Assembly: GCA_001464585.1 (NCBI GenBank)
Contig: LNFF01000015.1
Coordinates: 62,001 to 126,000 of the forward strand
Direction of reading: 5' to 3'
DNA from: Gammaproteobacteria bacterium Ga0077554
Lineage (GTDB): Bacteria > Pseudomonadota > Gammaproteobacteria > Ga0077554 > Ga007554
Length of the DNA: 64,000 nucleotides
The notes under the pieces are model-generated. The model was not told where the DNA came from, did not search any database, and was given only the letters and a program-made list of their open reading frames with translations. Of the stretch, positions 17,900-51,420 are shown in pieces. Numbering within the stretch: the first letter of the stretch is position 1; every line of letters begins with the position of its first letter. The translations under genes were made by a program, and so were the position numbers.

Positions 17900-18256
17900 G
17901 GAGTTGGCCAGACAGCCGCTGTTGCCGCAAGGTAATAGAGGAAAGTCCGGGCTCCGCAGGGCAGGGTGCCAGGTAACACCTGGGAGGCGTGAGCCTATGG
18001 AAAGTGCCACAGAAAATATACCGCCGATGTGCCGTAAGGCGCAGGTAAGGGTGAAATGGTGCGGTAAGAGCGCACCGCGCGACTGGTAACAGGCGTGGCA
18101 GGGAAAACCCCACCCGGAGCAAGACCAAATAGGGGAACGATAGTGCGGCCCGCACTGTTCCCGGGTAGGTTGCTTGAGGTGTACGGTGACGTGCATCCCA
18201 GATGAATGGCTGTCCATGACAGAACCCGGCTTATCGGCCAACTCTTTTTTATTTTT
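17900..18256 (+). ncRNA. rnpB: RNase P RNA, bacterial type A
   Basis: Catalytic RNA that removes the 5' leader of tRNA precursors. Nearly all universally conserved segments are present: GAGGAAAGTCCGGGCTCC near 17938, CAGGGTGCCAGGTAA, AGGTAAGGGTGAAA near 18043, GTGCGGTAAGAGCGCACC, GGTAACAG, CACCCGGAGCAAG, CCAAATAGGGG and the final GACAGAACCCGGCTTATCGGC. The 5' end GAGTTGGCC pairs with GGCCAACTC at 18236-18244, closing helix P1, and is followed by a T-run acting as terminator. The overall length of about 345 bases fits type A. A TACAAT -10 at 17888-17893 is a plausible promoter element. Confidence 0.97.
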
Positions 18257-42779: not shown

Positions 42780-43463
42780 ATGCGTATTGCATTGTTGGAA
42801 GATGATCCTGATCAAGTGGCATTATTGCAGATGTGGTTGCATGACGCGGGTCACGCTTGCCATGTGTTTGGCACGGGTGAGCAGTTGTTGCAATCTTTGG
42901 CCAGGGACACCTTTGATTTGCTGTTGGTCGACTGGGAGCTTCCGGGGCTTAGTGGTGTTGAGGTGGTTGCGCGTATTCGCGAGCGGCTTGATTGGCATAT
43001 CCCTATCCTGTTTGTGACTGCGCGTGACCGCGAGGAAGATATTGTGCAGGCGTTGCAGGCGGGCGCCGATGACTACATGATCAAGCCAACAAGGCAGATG
43101 GAAATGCTGGCGCGTATTAATGCGTTGCAGCGGCGTGGCGGGGCAGATGAGACGGTAGAGTATGCCCCGTATAGATTTATTCGCGCTATTCACTCAGTTA
43201 CCCGCAACGAACTGGCTATCCAGCTTACCGCCAAGGAATATGACTTGGCCGAGTTTCTGTTCCGCCATGCAGGAAAGTTGCTGAGCCGTGGCCATATTTT
43301 AGAAAGCGTGTGGGGTCAGCGCGCTGACTTGAACACGCGCACAGTCGATACGCATATCAGCCTGATCCGGCAGAAACTCGATATTGCGGTGCATAATGGT
43401 TGGCAGATCAGCACGGTTTATCGGCATGGTTATCGCCTGGAGCAGACCGGTAAAAATGGTTAA
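42780..43463 (+). CDS. OmpR/PhoB-type response regulator, orphan
   Basis: A 227-residue two-domain regulator. The receiver domain has acidic Asp8-Asp9, phosphoacceptor Asp51 (LLLVDWELPG), the Thr in LFVTARDR and Lys in DDYMIKPT. The C-terminal winged helix (about 130-220) has LTAKEYDLAEFLFRHAGKLLSRGHILESVWG and RTVDTHISLIRQKL, typical OmpR-class DNA recognition. No histidine kinase gene is adjacent; the nearest kinase is the CHASE2 hybrid 5 kb away. The target genes are unknown, but the neighbouring genes encode envelope proteins. Confidence 0.93.
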   Translation: MRIALLEDDPDQVALLQMWLHDAGHACHVFGTGEQLLQSLARDTFDLLLVDWELPGLSGVEVVARIRERLDWHIPILFVTARDREEDIVQALQAGADDYMIKPTRQMEMLARINALQRRGGADETVEYAPYRFIRAIHSVTRNELAIQLTAKEYDLAEFLFRHAGKLLSRGHILESVWGQRADLNTRTVDTHISLIRQKLDIAVHNGWQISTVYRHGYRLEQTGKNG

Positions 43464-43516: not shown

Positions 43517-43930
43517 TCACCGCCTGGATTTCAACAGGTCCCTGATATCAGTTAACAGCCGTTCCTCTGCGGAAGGTGGTGGAGGTATGGGGGGCGCTGA
43601 TGGCGCAGCTTGCTCTTTCTTTTTGAGCGAATTGATTGCATTGATTACCATGAAGATGGCGAAAGCTATGATTGTGAAATCGATGATTGTCTGCAGAAAT
43701 TTTCCGTACTTGATGGCGACCGCCGCAGTGCTTGTGGTGGCTGCCTGCAAGGTGAACGCCAGGTCGGAAAAATTAACCCCACCGATAAGTATGCCAATCG
43801 GCGGCATGATTACATCTTCCACTACAGAAGATACAATCTTGCCAAATGCTGCGCCGATGACGATACCTACGGCCATATCAACCACATTGCCTTTGATGGC
43901 AAATGCTTTAAACTCTTGTAGCATACTCAT
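43517..43930 (-). CDS. mscL: Large-conductance mechanosensitive channel MscL
   Basis: A 137-residue pentameric channel that opens under membrane tension to release solutes on hypo-osmotic shock. N-terminal [40 protein letters not shown] gives the first pore helix with the glycine-rich constriction; the second helix is [22 protein letters not shown]; the cytoplasmic helix ends [13 protein letters not shown] after a proline-rich linker (APPIPPPP). Length is typical. It is 14 bases downstream of the DUF481 gene and probably cotranscribed. Confidence 0.97.
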
Positions 43931-43944
43931 TGCGCATCCTCCAA

Positions 43945-44658
43945 TTAGAACCCGTATACCAGGGTTACTGCCGTTTCAGTATCCATGTCCTTCACTGAAG
44001 CAGGTACTTCAGAAACATGTCTGGCGGTAAACGAAAGTTTCATCGCCAGGCTGCCCACCAACTGTGCTGTCAGCGCCGTTACTGATCGGGTAATGGTGGT
44101 GTCGCTACCGATTTCAGTAGCCAGGTCTTCGCTCAAAGAAGCGGATGGGCTGAATTTCCATAGCAGTTTCCCGCCGATATAACCCATAAACTCATTTTCC
44201 GATGGGCTGTTGCGTAACTGCGTTTGCCGTGCGCCTGGACCAGCCTCAAGATCCAATGTCAGGTTGTCCTGGCTGATAACACGGTAGCCATAACCTAGCG
44301 CTTCACTGGTGCGGTAGTCGAAGCCGGCAAACCGGTCATTCTCGTAACTCACGAGACCAAATGCATAACTACGCCCGTCAAATTTGTAATCACTCTTGCC
44401 AGATAGCGCATAACGTTCGCCAGTAGTGCGTGTGGCGTCTGAGGTATTCAGTGCGTCAAATTTAGCGGTATGACGCCATTTGTCCTGCTCATGCACTACG
44501 CCGGCACGGGCTTTGATGGAGGTGGTTTCAGTGTTGCCACTGGTTGACACAATGCCCAGTTCGGCACTACCTTTCCAGGGTTGAGCGGACTCTGCGGCAA
44601 TTAATTGACCGGTACTGCCTAATAAAATTATCAGTGCAATATTATTTTTTAAAAACAT
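43945..44658 (-). CDS. DUF481 (YdiY-like) outer-membrane protein
   Basis: A 237-residue protein with a signal peptide (cleavage probably after LIAAE region near residue 22) and a run of alternating hydrophobic beta strands ending in the aromatic C-terminus VTLVYGF typical of outer-membrane barrels. [26 protein letters not shown] is the DUF481 signature. The family includes E. coli YdiY, linked to acid or salt responses, but has no assigned transport function. It is cotranscribed with mscL, which hints at an osmotic or envelope role. Confidence 0.88.
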
Positions 44659-44751: not shown

Positions 44752-45996
44752 TTAGTTCTGCAATATATGCAATTCAACGCGGCGATTCTGCGCGCGTCCT
44801 GCCGCAGTGTTATTGTCCGCGACGGGATTGGCTGCGCCGTAACCTTTGGCGGTCAGTTGCTCTGCCTTTACGCCATGGCTAATCAGGTAGTTTGCAACTG
44901 CCTGGGCACGTTTTTGAGACAGCTTCTGATTTGCGGCCGCAGCGCCACGATTGTCAGTATAGCCGCCTACTTCAATCGCTATTTCAGAGCGGCGTGACAA
45001 GGTATCCGCTACGCCATTGAGAATGCCAATGGAATTGCTGGTCAAACGATCCGATGAAGTTTCAAAGTTGACGCCTTTAAGAATGATGACTTCAGGAATC
45101 TCGCAGCCATTGTTATCTACCTTGGCATTGGCTTTGCTGTTTGGGCAGCGATCCTGGCTGTCAACCACGCCATCGTTATCGCTATCTGCCTCACAGCCTT
45201 GGACATTCACTTTGGCGCCTGCCGGGGAATTGGGGCAACGATCCTGGCTATCCACTACGCCATCACCATCATTGTCCAATTCACAGCCTTGCGCATTAAC
45301 TTTCGTGCCAGCAGGGGAGCTTGGGCAGCGGTCTTTGCTATCCGCTATGCCGTCACCATCGCTATCAGCCGGCTGGGTGGCAGGTGCTGGCGCGACAAAT
45401 GCCGCTGCCACAGCAACAGGTGCAATAACCGGAGCAGGCTTGATCTTGCTTCCCAACGGTATCGCCAGCCCCAGATTGAATACCCAATCCCCAAAACTTT
45501 TCTGGCTTGCAACTGAATAATCATCAAAGTCAACGCGGTAGCGTGCATCGGCACGTAAGGCCAAGCCGTTGCCGGTAAGATCTGTTTCGAAGCCAATGCC
45601 GGCATTAACCATTGCGTTGACACTTTGGCCGACGGTTTTCGTAGTTAAAGCACCAACGCCAACCACGGCGTAAGGTGAAAAGCTTGCGTCACGGCCGAAG
45701 AAGTAAAGCGCATCAAGCCCCAGGCCTTTTTGTTTGTACTTGCCCGAGCCGTTTTTAAAATCCATGCTATCCGCGACCAGATTCGCTTCAATATCCCACG
45801 ATTCGTTGAGTGCCTTGCTTATGCCAAGACGGAACCCCAGATCATTATCAGCATTGCGATCCTTGTCGGCCTTGATGTAGCTGAGCGCTGGAGTAACATG
45901 CCAACGATCGTCAAGCCCACCTGCATTAACCGGGGCATATATTGATAATGCTGATGCGATAGTTAATATTGGAACCATATATTTTTTTATCATCAT
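44752..45996 (-). CDS. OmpA-family protein with three TSP3-like calcium repeats
   Basis: A 414-residue outer-membrane protein. A signal peptide (about 1-25, ending PVNA) precedes an eight-stranded OmpA-type barrel (26-180), an alanine/proline-rich linker (185-209), three exact-length 30-residue thrombospondin type 3-like repeats (211-240, 241-270, 271-300; each with DxDGDGxxDxxDRCPxS and a closing GCE) and a C-terminal peptidoglycan-binding OmpA domain with LSQKRAQAVANYLISHGV. The Asp-rich repeats should bind calcium and the paired cysteines may form disulfides. It anchors the outer membrane to the wall. Transcribed from its own promoter; 93 bases from the DUF481 gene. Confidence 0.94.
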   Translation of the reverse strand: MMIKKYMVPILTIASALSIYAPVNAGGLDDRWHVTPALSYIKADKDRNADNDLGFRLGISKALNESWDIEANLVADSMDFKNGSGKYKQKGLGLDALYFFGRDASFSPYAVVGVGALTTKTVGQSVNAMVNAGIGFETDLTGNGLALRADARYRVDFDDYSVASQKSFGDWVFNLGLAIPLGSKIKPAPVIAPVAVAAAFVAPAPATQPADSDGDGIADSKDRCPSSPAGTKVNAQGCELDNDGDGVVDSQDRCPNSPAGAKVNVQGCEADSDNDGVVDSQDRCPNSKANAKVDNNGCEIPEVIILKGVNFETSSDRLTSNSIGILNGVADTLSRRSEIAIEVGGYTDNRGAAAANQKLSQKRAQAVANYLISHGVKAEQLTAKGYGAANPVADNNTAAGRAQNRRVELHILQN

Positions 45997-46194: not shown

Positions 46195-46629
46195 TTATTG
46201 ATTATCAATGCGCTGATTGTTTTTTTTGCCATTTGTATGGATTTCTGGCAATTTATGGCGTTGCCGCGCGGCGATCATGCTTTTAATGAAGGCGTGAAAT
46301 TTAGTTGTGTCAAAAGGTTTGGTGAGAAAGTGCATCGCACCAAATGCCAGCGCCTGATAGCGTATAAAATTTTCCTGCCGCGAGCTGAGCATAAGTATTG
46401 GTGTATCGGTTTTGCCTTCAAGGGCGCGAAACTGGCGGATAAATGCCATGCCGTCCAGTTTTGGCATCAAGTAATCAACAATCACCAGATCGGGATCATT
46501 ATGCATGCACCACCCCAGGGCTTCTGTGGGTAATGAAAAACAAAGTATTTCATAGTCACCCATATTCTCGAGCGTGGCGCGCACCAATGCCAGGAACTCT
46601 GTGTCATCATCAATAATTGCTATTTTCAT
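46195..46629 (-). CDS. Single-domain response regulator
   Basis: A 144-residue receiver domain with no output domain. Acidic Asp7-Asp8-Asp9, phosphoacceptor Asp52 (LVIVDYLMPKLDG), Ser in LMLSSRQE and Lys in FLTKPFD are all present. The C-terminal 25 residues are basic and polar. Such proteins act as phosphate shuttles or by protein contact. It is divergent from the FecR protein, CHASE2 kinase and Hpt genes, making it a candidate end or middle of that relay. This is inference from position. Confidence 0.9.
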   Translation of the reverse strand: MKIAIIDDDTEFLALVRATLENMGDYEILCFSLPTEALGWCMHNDPDLVIVDYLMPKLDGMAFIRQFRALEGKTDTPILMLSSRQENFIRYQALAFGAMHFLTKPFDTTKFHAFIKSMIAARQRHKLPEIHTNGKKNNQRIDNQ

Positions 46630-46901
46630 GTTAACTCTCTAATAAGGCCACCTGTCTCAATCAGTCGGTCGGGATGGCCTGTGTCGGGAATGTTTCTTTA
46701 TGATAAACGTTAAACGTGGATTTGTTTGATAAGTTTTGTTAAACCTCCCAGATCCTGAGTTAAGCCGGATTTTTATGGTTGAGAGTTATAGTAGACTTTA
46801 GGGCATGTGAAGAAATAAGTCTTACATTTGAACGGCGCTCACGGGATGCCCTGCAAGGCGCCGCCTCTCTTTGTCTAGTGTAATAACGTGTGGCCGCGCC
46901 A

Positions 46902-48572
46902 ATGAATAATTGCCAAATATTACTTTCCTTTTTGCGTCTATCAGGCCAGTATCCATCGCGTTTTTTTTGGCTGCCAATGATTTTGTTGGCGACACATGTC
47001 CAGGCTGATACCACCACTTGGGCATATACTGTACGTCAAGGTGATACCCTGATTGCCATATCCAACAACTATCTGGAACGCCCCAATGAGTGGGTGAAAT
47101 TGCAAAATATCAATCGCATTAAAAACCCAAAACGACTTCCGCCGGGGCTGCAGCTATATATCCCTGTTGAGCTGCTGAAGCTTCAGGAAACGGTTGCTAA
47201 AGTGGTGCGGGTGCAGCGTGAGGTAGAAATTATTTCTGCGGTGGGCGGGGTGTATTTTTCCGCCGAGCCCGGGGCGTCACTGCACAGGGGGGATAAAATA
47301 CGTACCGGCAAAGACAGTAACATCACACTGCGTTTTGCCGATGGTTCGCGCCTGATGGTCATGGAAAATAGTGAGGTGACACTCAATGTGATGACTGTCT
47401 ATGGAAAATCTGATGTTATGAACACTCGCATACAGTTACAAAAAGGCCAGGTTGAAACCCAGGTGGCGCCACTGAAAGGCCCAGCGGCACATTATAAAAT
47501 CATCACGCCAGTAATCGCTGTTGGCGTGCGTGGTACGGATTTTCGTGTGAGCGCGGATGCGAATGCCAAAGTATCACGCAGTGAGGTATTGCATGGGGCT
47601 GTGGCCGTTGAGGGCGAAGGCACGCAACTGTCTGTACCCGCCGGATTCGGCACATTGGCTGAGGCAGGTAAGCCGCCATTACCGCCTGTCGCCTTATTGA
47701 AAGAGCCGGATTTGACTGACCTGCCCACGTTGTTGCGGCATGTTCCATTGCAGTTTAACTGGCGTGCTTTGGAGGGTGCTTTTTCCTACCGCGCCCAAGT
47801 ATACGCAGACAAAGAATTTCAAGATCTCTTGCTGGATGGCCTATTCAGTAACAGTGAGGCGAAATGGCCGGACCTGCCGGACGGTAATTATTTCTTGCGC
47901 GTGCGTGCCATTGATACACAAGGTTTGGAGGGATTAAATGCTGGCCGTGCCTTTACGCTGAACGCGCGCCCCGTGCCACCTTTTATCAGTGCGCCGACAG
48001 ACAAGGGAATGTTTTATGGTGATCAGGTGCAATTCCAGTGGACTCCACCCGAAAATGCCGAAGCCTATCATATTCAGGTTGCATCAAACGGGGAATTTAC
48101 CACGCCGGTTGTAAACATGGTTGATTTGAAAGACTTGCAATACACGGCGATGCTAGCCCCGGGTGAATATTATTGGCGTATCGCCAGCCGTATCGGCTCC
48201 GATGATGAGGGTCCGTTTAGCGATGCGCGATCATTCACGCTGAAGTCGATACCGGCCGCACCAATTATTTCACCACCACACATCGACAGTAAGAAAATGA
48301 CGTTTCAGTGGCCGGCGGGCGAGGCAGGTTATAAGTATCAATTCCAATTGGCGCGTGATGAAGGTTTTCATGACATGCTTGCCGATAAACTCCTCAGTGA
48401 CGCCAGCATTATTTTAGCCAATCCTGGTACGGGTAATTATTTTATGCGTGTCAAAGCAATAGATGCGGATGGCTTTTCAGGATCTTTCGGCGCATCCCAA
48501 CAGATACAGATTCCACGAAATGTGCCATGGTGGTTGACCATTCCTGTATTGTTATTCTCTCTAATGCTATAA
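46902..48572 (+). CDS. Periplasmic LysM-FecR domain protein
   Basis: A 556-residue exported protein. A signal peptide (about 1-35, ending HVQA) precedes a LysM domain (YTVRQGDTLIAISNNYLERPNEWVKLQNINRI...LYIPV, about 41-95) likely to bind peptidoglycan, a FecR domain (around 110-260, with RFADGSRLMVMENSEVTL and ITPVIAVGVRGTDFRVS), and two fibronectin-like repeats (about 275-540; ALEGAFSYRAQVYADKEFQ, ENAEAYHIQVASNGEF). A C-terminal hydrophobic stretch WWLTIPVLLFSLML may anchor it. The ATG at 46902 is chosen over the GTG at 46890. Next to a CHASE2 kinase, it probably supplies the sensed envelope signal, as in other FecR-CHASE2 pairs. Confidence 0.9.
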   Translation: MNNCQILLSFLRLSGQYPSRFFWLPMILLATHVQADTTTWAYTVRQGDTLIAISNNYLERPNEWVKLQNINRIKNPKRLPPGLQLYIPVELLKLQETVAKVVRVQREVEIISAVGGVYFSAEPGASLHRGDKIRTGKDSNITLRFADGSRLMVMENSEVTLNVMTVYGKSDVMNTRIQLQKGQVETQVAPLKGPAAHYKIITPVIAVGVRGTDFRVSADANAKVSRSEVLHGAVAVEGEGTQLSVPAGFGTLAEAGKPPLPPVALLKEPDLTDLPTLLRHVPLQFNWRALEGAFSYRAQVYADKEFQDLLLDGLFSNSEAKWPDLPDGNYFLRVRAIDTQGLEGLNAGRAFTLNARPVPPFISAPTDKGMFYGDQVQFQWTPPENAEAYHIQVASNGEFTTPVVNMVDLKDLQYTAMLAPGEYYWRIASRIGSDDEGPFSDARSFTLKSIPAAPIISPPHIDSKKMTFQWPAGEAGYKYQFQLARDEGFHDMLADKLLSDASIILANPGTGNYFMRVKAIDADGFSGSFGASQQIQIPRNVPWWLTIPVLLFSLML

Positions 48573-48607
48573 AACTCAAAGTTCGGTAGAAAATAGGTGC
48601 TTCCTTG

Positions 48608-51076
48608 ATGATGTGGTGGATGACATGGCGGCGCCTCATTATGGTGATCAGTGCGGCGCTGTTCATTACGGTGCTCGCCAGCCAGGCTACCCTCTATAAG
48701 CAGATGGATTTGTGGCTGGCGGAAACCACGCAACAACCGTTAGTTGCAAAAGATTTTTATTTCACCGATACCGTGGTTGTCGATATAGATGAAGACTCCA
48801 TGGCGCGGCTTTCCTCCGAGTTTGGCGCATGGCCCTATAAGCGGGATGTCTACAGCCTGGTCACTGACTATCTCAAAGATGCTGGCGCCAAAACCATTGT
48901 TTATGACATTCTCCTTTCCGAGCCGCGTGAAGGAGATGGGTCATTCGCACTATCCATGCAGCGTACAGGCAACGTTATTTTATCTGGGGTGGCATTGCCG
49001 TTTGCGCCAAAACGGGATGCTGGATACCACGCGCAATTGACAGCATTGGCCTGGCCAATCAGTAGTGCTATTCCCGGTAAACATTGGGATGACATGACAT
49101 TGCCGAGGATGGAGTTTACTCCAATATCCGCCAAGCAGGTGCGGGTTGGTATAATTAATGTTGTTCCTGACGTGGACGGTATACTGCGTCGCATCCCGTT
49201 ATTTCATGAGAGTTACGGCAAGTATCTGCCTAATGCCGCATTGGCCGCGTTATTTGTTCATCAACCGTATCCCGCCGTGAAATATCTGCCTGATGGCCAG
49301 CGCTTACAAATAGGGGAATATTCCTGGCCGGTCACTGACAGCGGTGAGATTATTTTGCAACATCCAAAAAATGCAGACCCATTTTTGGTAATGCCTTTTT
49401 ACAAGCTGGTGTTTGCGGCGCTTGGCATGCCAGGTTATGCCATATCCCGTGATGAAATCGAGGGGAAAACGATTTTTATTGGCAGCGCCACAGCAATTTT
49501 GGGTGACTATTCTGTCACCCCCCATGGCATCAAATCTGGGCTGCATATCATGGCGTTGACATATCAGAATCTAGCGAAAAATATGGTGCTGCGCCCACAC
49601 AAGCCAGGGTGGGATTTGATGTTGATATTGGTTGGTGTAGTGTTTCCGCTGATTGCGGCACATCGCCGTTTTCAATCCATTGCCACCATGAGTCTGCTGG
49701 CAGTGGTGGGTATCGTGGGAACTTATTTTATTAGTCTGGGATTATTGGCTTTTTTAAAGCAACAAAGCGCGTTACTGTTTTCCATAACAAATAGCTTCAC
49801 TCTTTATCTGTTGATGATTTTGTCACGTATCAAGATCCTCTATGATGAAAAACAAAAACTTTCGTATGAAAAAATGGCGGCCGAGAAAGCCAGCGCGCTC
49901 AAGAGCAAATTCCTCTCGCATATCACTCATGAACTGCGTACCCCCCTCACGGCGATTATGGGATTCAACAGTTTGATCAGCGAAAATGCCTCGTTGTCGC
50001 CAGATGAAAAAAAAGCGACAAAAACCATAGAGAAAAACAGTGAGCATTTACTCAGCTTGATAAACAATCTGCTCGACCAGGCAAAAATTGAAGCGGGAAA
50101 GATGAACCTTGATATTCGACCGACTGCAATACGAGACGTTATAGGCGGTGTGATCTCTACATTTGAGGGGCTGGCCGCTAAAAAAAATGTAGGAATTAAA
50201 GTGCAGTATGATATATGCGTGCCACCAATACTCACCTTCGATGGGCTCCGCTTGCGTCAGATTGTTATTAATTTGCTTGGTAATGCATTGAAATTTACTG
50301 ATCGAGGGCATATTTTAATTAAGGTTGTTTGGAAAAACGCCTGGCTTGAAACTGCGGTACAAGATACCGGGCCTGGAGTTGCATTAAAGGCGCAAGACAA
50401 AATTTTCATGGCATTTCAACAGGGAGATGCATCAGTGGCCAATGCTCCGGCAGGGACGGGTCTAGGCCTCGCCATTAGCCGCCATCTTGCGCAGCTGATG
50501 GGTGGTACTTTGTCGATTGAGTCCACGTTGGGTGCGGGATCGACGTTTTATTTGCGCATTCCTGCGCCGGTCGCTTCCGGCATCCTGCCTCTGGCGACAC
50601 TTACATATCCATGTGCGGCGGAAGCCGAATTAATCAGCCTGAATGTACATGAAGATTCGGCAGGCGCGGCATCCGCCATCAAGCAGCCGCAGCCCACAGA
50701 AAAACTGAGGGGGTGTGTTTTGTTGGTAGATGACTCTGAAGATAGCCGGGTTCTGTTCAAGAATTTTTTTGATAAAATGGGGTTGGTTTCTGTGTTTGCC
50801 GAAAATGGTCAGGTAGCAGTGCGGATTGCGCTTGCGGAGCAGCCGGATATTATTTTGATGGACATGGAAATGCCGGTAATGAACGGCCTGGAAGCAGTGC
50901 GGCTGTTACGTCAACATGGTTACGTCAAGCCGGTCGTGGCACTTACAGCGCACGCCAATCAAGCGATACATGGCGCATTGCTTGAAGCTGGTTTTGATAG
51001 CTGCTTGAGTAAACCCATTAAACAAAATTCATTGCGACAGGCGCTCGCTGCAATATTGAAGACATCACCTAATTAA
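48608..51076 (+). CDS. CHASE2-domain hybrid histidine kinase
   Basis: An 822-residue membrane sensor. An N-terminal helix (about 10-30) leads to a large periplasmic CHASE2 domain (about 45-330; VVDIDEDSMARLSSEFGAWPYKRDVY and VRVGIINVVPDVDGILRRIPLF are typical), then three transmembrane helices (about 335-405), a HisKA domain with His441 in THELRTPLTAI, a HATPase domain (N-box NLLGNALKFTD; G-boxes DTGPGV and GTGLGLAISRHL) and a C-terminal receiver with Asp752 (ILMDMEMPVMNG). Start at ATG 48608 after AGGTG; an earlier TTG is unlikely. It follows the FecR gene by 35 bases and precedes an Hpt gene, so His-Asp-His transfer is expected. Confidence 0.95.
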   Translation: MMWWMTWRRLIMVISAALFITVLASQATLYKQMDLWLAETTQQPLVAKDFYFTDTVVVDIDEDSMARLSSEFGAWPYKRDVYSLVTDYLKDAGAKTIVYDILLSEPREGDGSFALSMQRTGNVILSGVALPFAPKRDAGYHAQLTALAWPISSAIPGKHWDDMTLPRMEFTPISAKQVRVGIINVVPDVDGILRRIPLFHESYGKYLPNAALAALFVHQPYPAVKYLPDGQRLQIGEYSWPVTDSGEIILQHPKNADPFLVMPFYKLVFAALGMPGYAISRDEIEGKTIFIGSATAILGDYSVTPHGIKSGLHIMALTYQNLAKNMVLRPHKPGWDLMLILVGVVFPLIAAHRRFQSIATMSLLAVVGIVGTYFISLGLLAFLKQQSALLFSITNSFTLYLLMILSRIKILYDEKQKLSYEKMAAEKASALKSKFLSHITHELRTPLTAIMGFNSLISENASLSPDEKKATKTIEKNSEHLLSLINNLLDQAKIEAGKMNLDIRPTAIRDVIGGVISTFEGLAAKKNVGIKVQYDICVPPILTFDGLRLRQIVINLLGNALKFTDRGHILIKVVWKNAWLETAVQDTGPGVALKAQDKIFMAFQQGDASVANAPAGTGLGLAISRHLAQLMGGTLSIESTLGAGSTFYLRIPAPVASGILPLATLTYPCAAEAELISLNVHEDSAGAASAIKQPQPTEKLRGCVLLVDDSEDSRVLFKNFFDKMGLVSVFAENGQVAVRIALAEQPDIILMDMEMPVMNGLEAVRLLRQHGYVKPVVALTAHANQAIHGALLEAGFDSCLSKPIKQNSLRQALAAILKTSPN

Positions 51077-51099
51077 ATGACAGATGCAATGTAATCCAC

Positions 51100-51420
51100 A
51101 TGGACCATGCCAATATTATTGTATATATCGATTCAAACCTCGAAAGATTGATTGACGGCTATCTGGAAAATAGACGACACGATCTGATTGCCATTAGAGC
51201 GGCGTTAACGCGGAATGATTTCGAACCTGTTCGCGCTATTGGTCACAATATCAAAGGTACTGGAAGTGGCTATGGATTCGATTTCATCAGCAAGGTCGGC
51301 GATGAACTTGAGCAGGCTGCATCGCGGGCCGATGAGGTGGCCATTATCAGGTTAACCCAAGAGATGGATGATTATCTTGAAAGATTAATTGTAGTGTTCG
51401 ACAAGGATATATCTGAATAA
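51100..51420 (+). CDS. Histidine phosphotransfer (Hpt) protein
   Basis: A 106-residue all-helical Hpt protein. The phosphoacceptor is His49 in AIGHNIKGTGSGYGFDFIS, matching the HxxKGxxxxxG pattern. It begins 23 bases after the hybrid kinase gene, so it should take phosphate from that kinase's receiver and pass it on, possibly to the single-domain or OmpR-type regulator nearby. No DNA-binding or catalytic output domain is present. Confidence 0.92.
   Translation: MDHANIIVYIDSNLERLIDGYLENRRHDLIAIRAALTRNDFEPVRAIGHNIKGTGSGYGFDFISKVGDELEQAASRADEVAIIRLTQEMDDYLERLIVVFDKDISE

Follow-up and report, generated by a model that had tools for sequence, protein, structure and literature searches.

The DNA analysed here (the window) is a stretch of 64,000 nucleotides from Gammaproteobacteria bacterium Ga0077554 (GenBank assembly GCA_001464585.1, contig LNFF01000015.1, positions 62,001 to 126,000 of the forward strand). 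Its positions 46195–51420 hold all the genes of a candidate phosphorelay (a stand-alone receiver, a LysM-FecR protein, a CHASE2 kinase and an Hpt protein), located from the list of open reading frames (ORFs) and from Pfam matches above the curated cut-offs. The LysM-FecR gene (46902..48572, + strand) codes for a periplasmic protein with LysM (4.2e-9) and FecR (5.9e-18) domains, together with fibronectin type III (FnIII)-like domains and a hydrophobic C-terminus recognised from alignment and from a structure model searched with Foldseek. The ORF is listed from a GTG at 46890, but the ATG at 46902 is the likelier start as it gives an MNN beginning like that in the related genome G001. There follow a CHASE2 hybrid histidine kinase (48605..51076, + strand; CHASE2 4.3e-34, HisKA 5.9e-19, HATPase_c 9.7e-25, Response_reg 2e-25; alignment of seven sequences), for which an ATG at 48608–48620 may be the actual start codon, and the histidine phosphotransfer protein Hpt (51100..51420, + strand; Hpt 2.2e-7). 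Since the gaps between the three genes are only 32 bp (FecR to kinase) and 23 bp (kinase to Hpt), they look like one operon. Facing FecR across a spacer of 260 bp, measured to the listed GTG, is a divergent gene (46195..46629, − strand) for a stand-alone receiver of 144 residues in which Pfam finds Response_reg (2.9e-23) and no other domain; it is the putative end of the relay and apparently a shortened relative of receiver/HD-GYP regulators in the sister genus.

The residues that such a relay would use, the catalytic ones of these families, are all intact. In the kinase they are H442 and, in its own receiver, D709/D710, D753, T781 and K803, invariant in the seven-sequence alignment; in Hpt the histidine is H49, invariant in 7/7 aligned sequences. 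The stand-alone receiver aligns with D7/D8, D52, S82 and K104 in place and so has the acidic pair, Asp, Thr/Ser and Lys of single-domain response regulators. Chance can be excluded as the origin of the gene set because the same genes are conserved in other species.

LysM and FecR in a single secreted protein, coded beside a CHASE2 membrane protein, make up a sensory pair. The structure model of the FecR protein is middling (mean predicted local distance difference test score (pLDDT) 71.5, predicted template modelling score 0.39) and usable in part; it has LysM at its N-terminal end and is matched in Foldseek chiefly by FnIII arrays, consistent with a rod spanning from wall to membrane. Of the five aligned FecR proteins, the four with a complete C-terminus all conserve the hydrophobic segment there; the fifth, from G001, is cut by the end of its contig. 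A model of CHASE2 was set aside for its low quality (mean pLDDT 55.1). In Candidatus Nitrotoga a LysM-FecR gene (L159:5916-7614) contains six tandem copies of 285 bp with a 99% match, apparently a recently amplified FnIII-like unit; the length of the rod may be variable.

Relay and envelope modules in the family

Of the 56 genomes searched, eight belong to the family: the window genome G000 and G001, both of the window's genus (g1), the genomes G003, G005 and G006 of the sister genus (g2), and G002, G004 and G007. An orthologue of the kinase is found in six of the eight (G000, G001, G003, G004, G005 and G006), and wherever it exists FecR, kinase and Hpt stay together, in agreement with the proposal, made in a sequence-only reading of this DNA, that the three are one unit. 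In G001 the trio is spread over two contigs (L092 and L043), each of which breaks inside FecR. G002 (85% complete) and G007 (78% complete) gave only unspecific kinase matches.

On its other side the receiver gene is neighboured by four genes of an envelope module, three of them on the − strand: OmpA/TSP3 (44752..45996), a DUF481 protein (43945..44658) and mscL (43517..43930), all assigned from Pfam and synteny. These fill the 2.7 kb between the receiver gene and the fourth, an OmpR-type regulator (42780..43463, + strand; Pfam, synteny in G003, G004 and G005, and trees), which lies behind secA and argJ and is separated from FecR by four other genes. At the far end of the operon pilQ converges on the Hpt gene with 71 bp between them. 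The sequence-only reading had listed its parts correctly, each being present as an ORF and as a Pfam match above the curated cut-offs, and had joined them into a single block; it had also named the scattering of that block in close relatives as the observation that would speak against it.

Such scattering is what we find. Of the other family genomes with the trio, G001 alone conserves both flanks of the window, the OmpR-mscL-DUF481-OmpA genes and, at the opposite end, pilQ, so that relay and envelope genes are joined in 2/6 trio genomes, both of genus g1, with the OmpR-type gene 2.7–3.3 kb from the receiver gene. G003 and G005 have the complete OmpR-mscL-DUF481-OmpA block on a different contig from the relay, as does G004 with OmpR (cut at the contig end), mscL and DUF481; the relay of G006, where the location of the OmpR gene was not searched, is not flanked by OmpA, DUF481 or mscL. 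Since relay and OmpR-mscL block lie on separate contigs in G003, G004 and G005, the block is two modules, relay and envelope, which meet in genus g1. Relay and envelope genes as one block are confined to the window and G001. The claimed adjacency to pilMNOPQ is real at the pilQ end, a flank kept only in g1.

The divergent regulator and its spacer

The gene facing FecR in G003, G005 and G006 codes for a receiver joined to an HD-GYP domain and has a second gene of this kind behind it in tandem. The FecR-facing regulator is therefore receiver/HD-GYP in 3/3 g2 genomes and receiver-only in 2/2 g1 trio genomes. Response_reg, HD_5 and HD were found in all four g2 regulators scanned with Pfam (G005 and G006; four of the six proteins), and the motifs HDIGK and HHE[RK]YDG.GYP in all six. 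The best solved-structure match of the first copy in G005 is 4mcw, a metal-dependent phosphohydrolase, presumably a cyclic-di-GMP (c-di-GMP) phosphodiesterase of the HD-GYP type.

The window receiver is 45–52% identical to these g2 proteins in the alignment. A tree of 35 receiver rows puts those of the window and G001 inside the clade of the first g2 copy (98/94, starred), and adjacent to that clade are the second g2 copy and an HD-GYP protein of G009 (95/92, starred). Both g1 receivers stop just past the receiver, at the domain border. These comparisons indicate that the divergent gene, rightly described before as receiver-only, is not an ordinary orphan regulator but a receiver/HD-GYP protein cut short. 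On the simplest reading of the tree, the duplication would be older than the divergence of the two genera, with the later loss in g1 of one complete copy and of the HD-GYP domain of the other. The G009 protein (L094:6694-10428), a receiver/HD-GYP relative of the g2 regulators, adjoins a hybrid kinase, with neither CHASE2 nor FecR, a case of the same regulator lineage paired with another sensor.

We found no HD_5 match in G000 or G001, whose drafts are 97% and 94% complete, and one or more in the other 6/8 genomes of that search; within the limits of these drafts the HD-GYP loss is therefore seen at the level of the genome. As G000 retains GGDEF (26 matches) and PilZ (5), c-di-GMP signalling as such has not been lost. 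A frameshift or insertion concealing the domain can be ruled out, the gap between the receiver and OmpA genes being only 198 bp in the window, and reading of the frames together with tblastn detected no HD-GYP remnant in the window or G001 (best tblastn E 1.3). Against G001, at high synonymous divergence, the ratio of non-synonymous to synonymous change (pN/pS) is 0.29 for the receiver, 0.31 for Hpt and 0.31 for the kinase, values which point to purifying selection on the receiver similar to that on its relay partners.

The divergent spacer is poorly conserved apart from 21 bp (46723..46743, no strand assigned), identical in the window, G001, G003 and G005 and located 83–108 bp ahead of the regulator start codon. 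Within each of 500 sets of shuffled spacers, no string longer than 6 bp was shared, against the 21 bp observed. Its 19-bp core has one exact copy in each of G000, G001, G003 and G005 and none in G004 or G006. The element is operator- or promoter-like; its letters fit an 8-bp direct repeat or, alternatively, an imperfect palindrome. This repeat-like form suggested the box of an OmpR regulon, which was rejected as there is no other convincing copy genome-wide at <=3 mismatches; G000 has the one exact copy and two matches with 3 mismatches. The RNA fold of the spacer has a z of −1.89.

The LysM-FecR/CHASE2 pair in other bacteria

The LysM-FecR/CHASE2 pair is already known as a front end, wired elsewhere to an OmpR-type pair or to GGDEF/EAL proteins. 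PMC5192318 describes the BiofilmReg operon of Burkholderia contaminans, consisting of an OmpR-type regulator, a LysM-FecR protein and a CHASE2-PAS kinase; biofilm formation was abolished there when the regulator was interrupted. The terms hybrid, Hpt, HD-GYP and diguanylate do not occur in that paper. Within the class, a LysM-FecR profile finds matches at E <= 1e-20 in 26 of 274 genomes, and the 23 outside the family hold 24 loci. The BiofilmReg order, an OmpR-type regulator followed on the same strand by LysM-FecR and then the CHASE2 kinase, is found in 15 of these, with the regulator typed by Pfam in L129, by NCBIfam in L128 and by near full-length alignment to the window OmpR-type protein in the other 13. 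In 7/24 loci CHASE2 occurs with GGDEF, in six of the seven also with EAL; one locus (L148) is cut by the contig end and one (L151) lacks a CHASE2 match. None of the 24 matches a custom Hpt profile, the one means by which Hpt was sought in these loci. Two of the loci (L131:9203-12454 and L132:9719-13075) have a CHASE2-PAS-GGDEF-EAL protein beside LysM-FecR that ends in a receiver domain, a c-di-GMP enzyme fused to a receiver.

A scan of named genomes gave 13 loci, five of them from G001, G003, G004, G005 and G044; the remote CHASE2 loci L160–L164 stand outside the counts. LysM-FecR occurs with CHASE2-GGDEF-EAL in Rhodocyclus (L155) and Nitrotoga (L159), and a beta-proteobacterial metagenome-assembled genome (L157) has the order kinase-Hpt-FecR. 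In the CHASE2 tree a 100/100 branch sets the window family, Rhodocyclus, Nitrotoga, L157 and G044 apart from BiofilmReg and the other GGDEF-linked proteins, and Rhodocyclus and Nitrotoga are also the nearest neighbours of the window family in the FecR tree (97/93).

The window shares with BiofilmReg the same kind of periplasmic front end, a LysM-FecR gene immediately ahead of that for a CHASE2 kinase. It differs in gene order and strand, in CHASE2 clade and in the kinase: that of BiofilmReg is non-hybrid, without Hpt and in most cases with PAS, in an operon headed by the OmpR-type regulator, whereas that of the window is a hybrid ending in a receiver, with an Hpt gene after it and a divergent, receiver-only regulator. 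In Rhodocyclus and Nitrotoga, the nearest relatives of the window FecR and CHASE2, a c-di-GMP output would be reached by domains fused directly to CHASE2, with no phosphorelay.

RpfC/RpfG of Xanthomonas combines a hybrid kinase carrying Hpt with a receiver/HD-GYP protein. The g2 loci resemble it in bringing together hybrid kinase, Hpt and receiver/HD-GYP regulator (3/3 genomes); the window and G001 have the first two and not the third. Here, unlike in RpfC/RpfG, Hpt has its own gene and CHASE2/LysM-FecR takes the place of the RpfC sensor. In our searches on CHASE2, which covered open-licence papers, we found no description of this hybrid-kinase/Hpt/HD-GYP form of LysM-FecR/CHASE2.

CHASE2 and FecR genes also stand together in Campylobacterota, where, according to PMC9239204, CHASE2 adenylate cyclases cluster with FecR proteins; that system differs in its cyclic AMP (cAMP) output and the absence of a kinase. 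A second CHASE2 protein, with a class III adenylate/guanylate cyclase domain, is coded in G000 (contig C6, L051:7688-9952) and in G003 (L054:8628-14315). The G003 gene has one for a FecR-TPR protein behind it, which makes another FecR/CHASE2 pair, presumably with a cAMP output.

The probable endpoint of the proposed relay

We consider it likely, with a probability of roughly 0.6, that the four genes form a multistep phosphorelay whose likely endpoint is the shortened divergent receiver and whose output is not transcription via the OmpR-type gene. LysM-FecR would attach to peptidoglycan through LysM, would be anchored at the inner membrane through the hydrophobic C-terminus, and would act on the CHASE2 sensor of the kinase. 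The kinase would then phosphorylate its own histidine and pass the phosphate by way of its receiver and the separate Hpt to the divergent regulator. In g2, with HDIGK and HHE..DG.GYP intact, the relay would switch the breakdown of c-di-GMP; in g1, where the HD-GYP domain and the second copy of the regulator are gone, this output would be lost, and the bare receiver would likely act by phosphorylation-dependent contact with a protein or as a phosphate sink tuning the relay. The probable input of the relay is the condition of the cell wall, with LysM-FecR as the part likely to sense it. This preserves the first half of an earlier suggestion of wall or osmotic stress; for the osmotic half the proximity of mscL is the sole pointer.

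The regulator lineage faces FecR in 5/6 trio genomes, which argues for the divergent receiver as the cognate partner. The 21-bp element is common to both genera, and the same sensor pair is tied to c-di-GMP domains in the 7/24 class loci and in Rhodocyclus and Nitrotoga. Several observations weigh on the other side. G004 has FecR, kinase and Hpt with no regulator adjoining, and its best match to the window receiver is only 33%, so that the trio can exist without this regulator; the trio of L157 likewise has no adjoining regulator, and in G044 no FecR adjoins the kinase and Hpt. In G006 the spacer element has no exact copy and is seen in degenerate form in the alignment, and the fork uniting the g1 receivers with the G003/G005 proteins is weak (92/18).

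The sequence-only reading had the relay end at one of the two nearby regulators, of which the divergent receiver is the likeliest endpoint and the OmpR-type regulator at 42780 is possible but unsupported. The relay would have moved beside the latter in g1, with Hpt feeding transcription of the envelope genes. The best argument for such a transfer is the history that this regulator family shares with the sensor pair, its members being coded elsewhere in one operon with LysM-FecR/CHASE2 kinases. The window protein is 43–55% identical to BiofilmReg regulators, against 32–35% for four further OmpR-type proteins from the G000 genome, and 22/26 LysM-FecR genomes contain the family. No kinase of its own adjoins it, and the window and G001 both keep it near the receiver gene. 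Inheritance as the BiofilmReg partner at first looked right and was weakened by stand-alone members of the family. The family is present in 61/274 genomes at E <= 1e-45, and 39/61 are without LysM-FecR (both overlaps come from two lists compared by eye, the same 274 genomes being assumed in each). In several genomes a stand-alone copy exists besides a BiofilmReg one, and in the regulator tree, where the deep forks are open, the window rows group with one BiofilmReg and one stand-alone copy of G058, so that the window gene may descend from either kind. Stand-alone copies adjoin an OmpA/TSP3 homologue in G087 and G211, which fits the envelope module. A tblastn search of 20 stand-alone neighbourhoods with the window kinase found no adjoining kinase (nearest ~3.2 kb), in a search that other kinase types could escape and with some stretches cut by contig ends. 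Because the regulator is on a different contig from the relay in G003, G004 and G005, the window CHASE2 lies outside the BiofilmReg clade and the 21-bp element is not repeated near the OmpR-mscL-OmpA genes, we regard this endpoint as quite improbable.

It is unlikely, if somewhat easier to entertain, that Hpt feeds one or more regulators elsewhere in the genome, the 144-residue receiver being only a phosphate sink or competitor. The trios of G004 and L157 lack an adjoining regulator, G000 has many receivers (37 matches), and single-domain receivers are known as hubs: MrrA is described in PMC5964349 as a single-domain regulator and the integrating point of a signalling network, a likeness by description, whereas the window receiver appears to derive from an HD-GYP regulator. 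The constancy of the lineage opposite FecR is, however, what is expected of a cognate partner. That the receiver is a decaying, functionless remnant is very improbable. Its output domain is lost without a detectable remnant downstream, but all its catalytic residues are retained, in both species the reading frame is open and stops right after the receiver, and a pN/pS of 0.29, near that of the relay partners, disfavours decay.

Going beyond the endpoint itself, we tentatively suggest, as something possible rather than probable, that a c-di-GMP-degrading output was cut at the domain border with relay, spacer element and receiver kept, and that the pathway now signals via the bare receiver to a new target such as pili, envelope genes or other c-di-GMP enzymes. 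If true, this would be a natural case of the loss of an output domain without the loss of its pathway, and the sister genera would be a natural before-and-after of that loss. Across bacteria one periplasmic sensor pair is linked to four outputs (OmpR-type pair, GGDEF/EAL, receiver/HD-GYP relay and bare receiver), which makes it testable what CHASE2 senses and whether wall state commonly becomes c-di-GMP.

A motif scan gave 11 promoter-like matches, no more than chance would produce (10.0 expected), and 11 terminator-like matches against 6.4 expected. A tRNA scan gave none, and the sole Rfam match of the window at gathering level is a class A RNase P RNA at 17900–18249.

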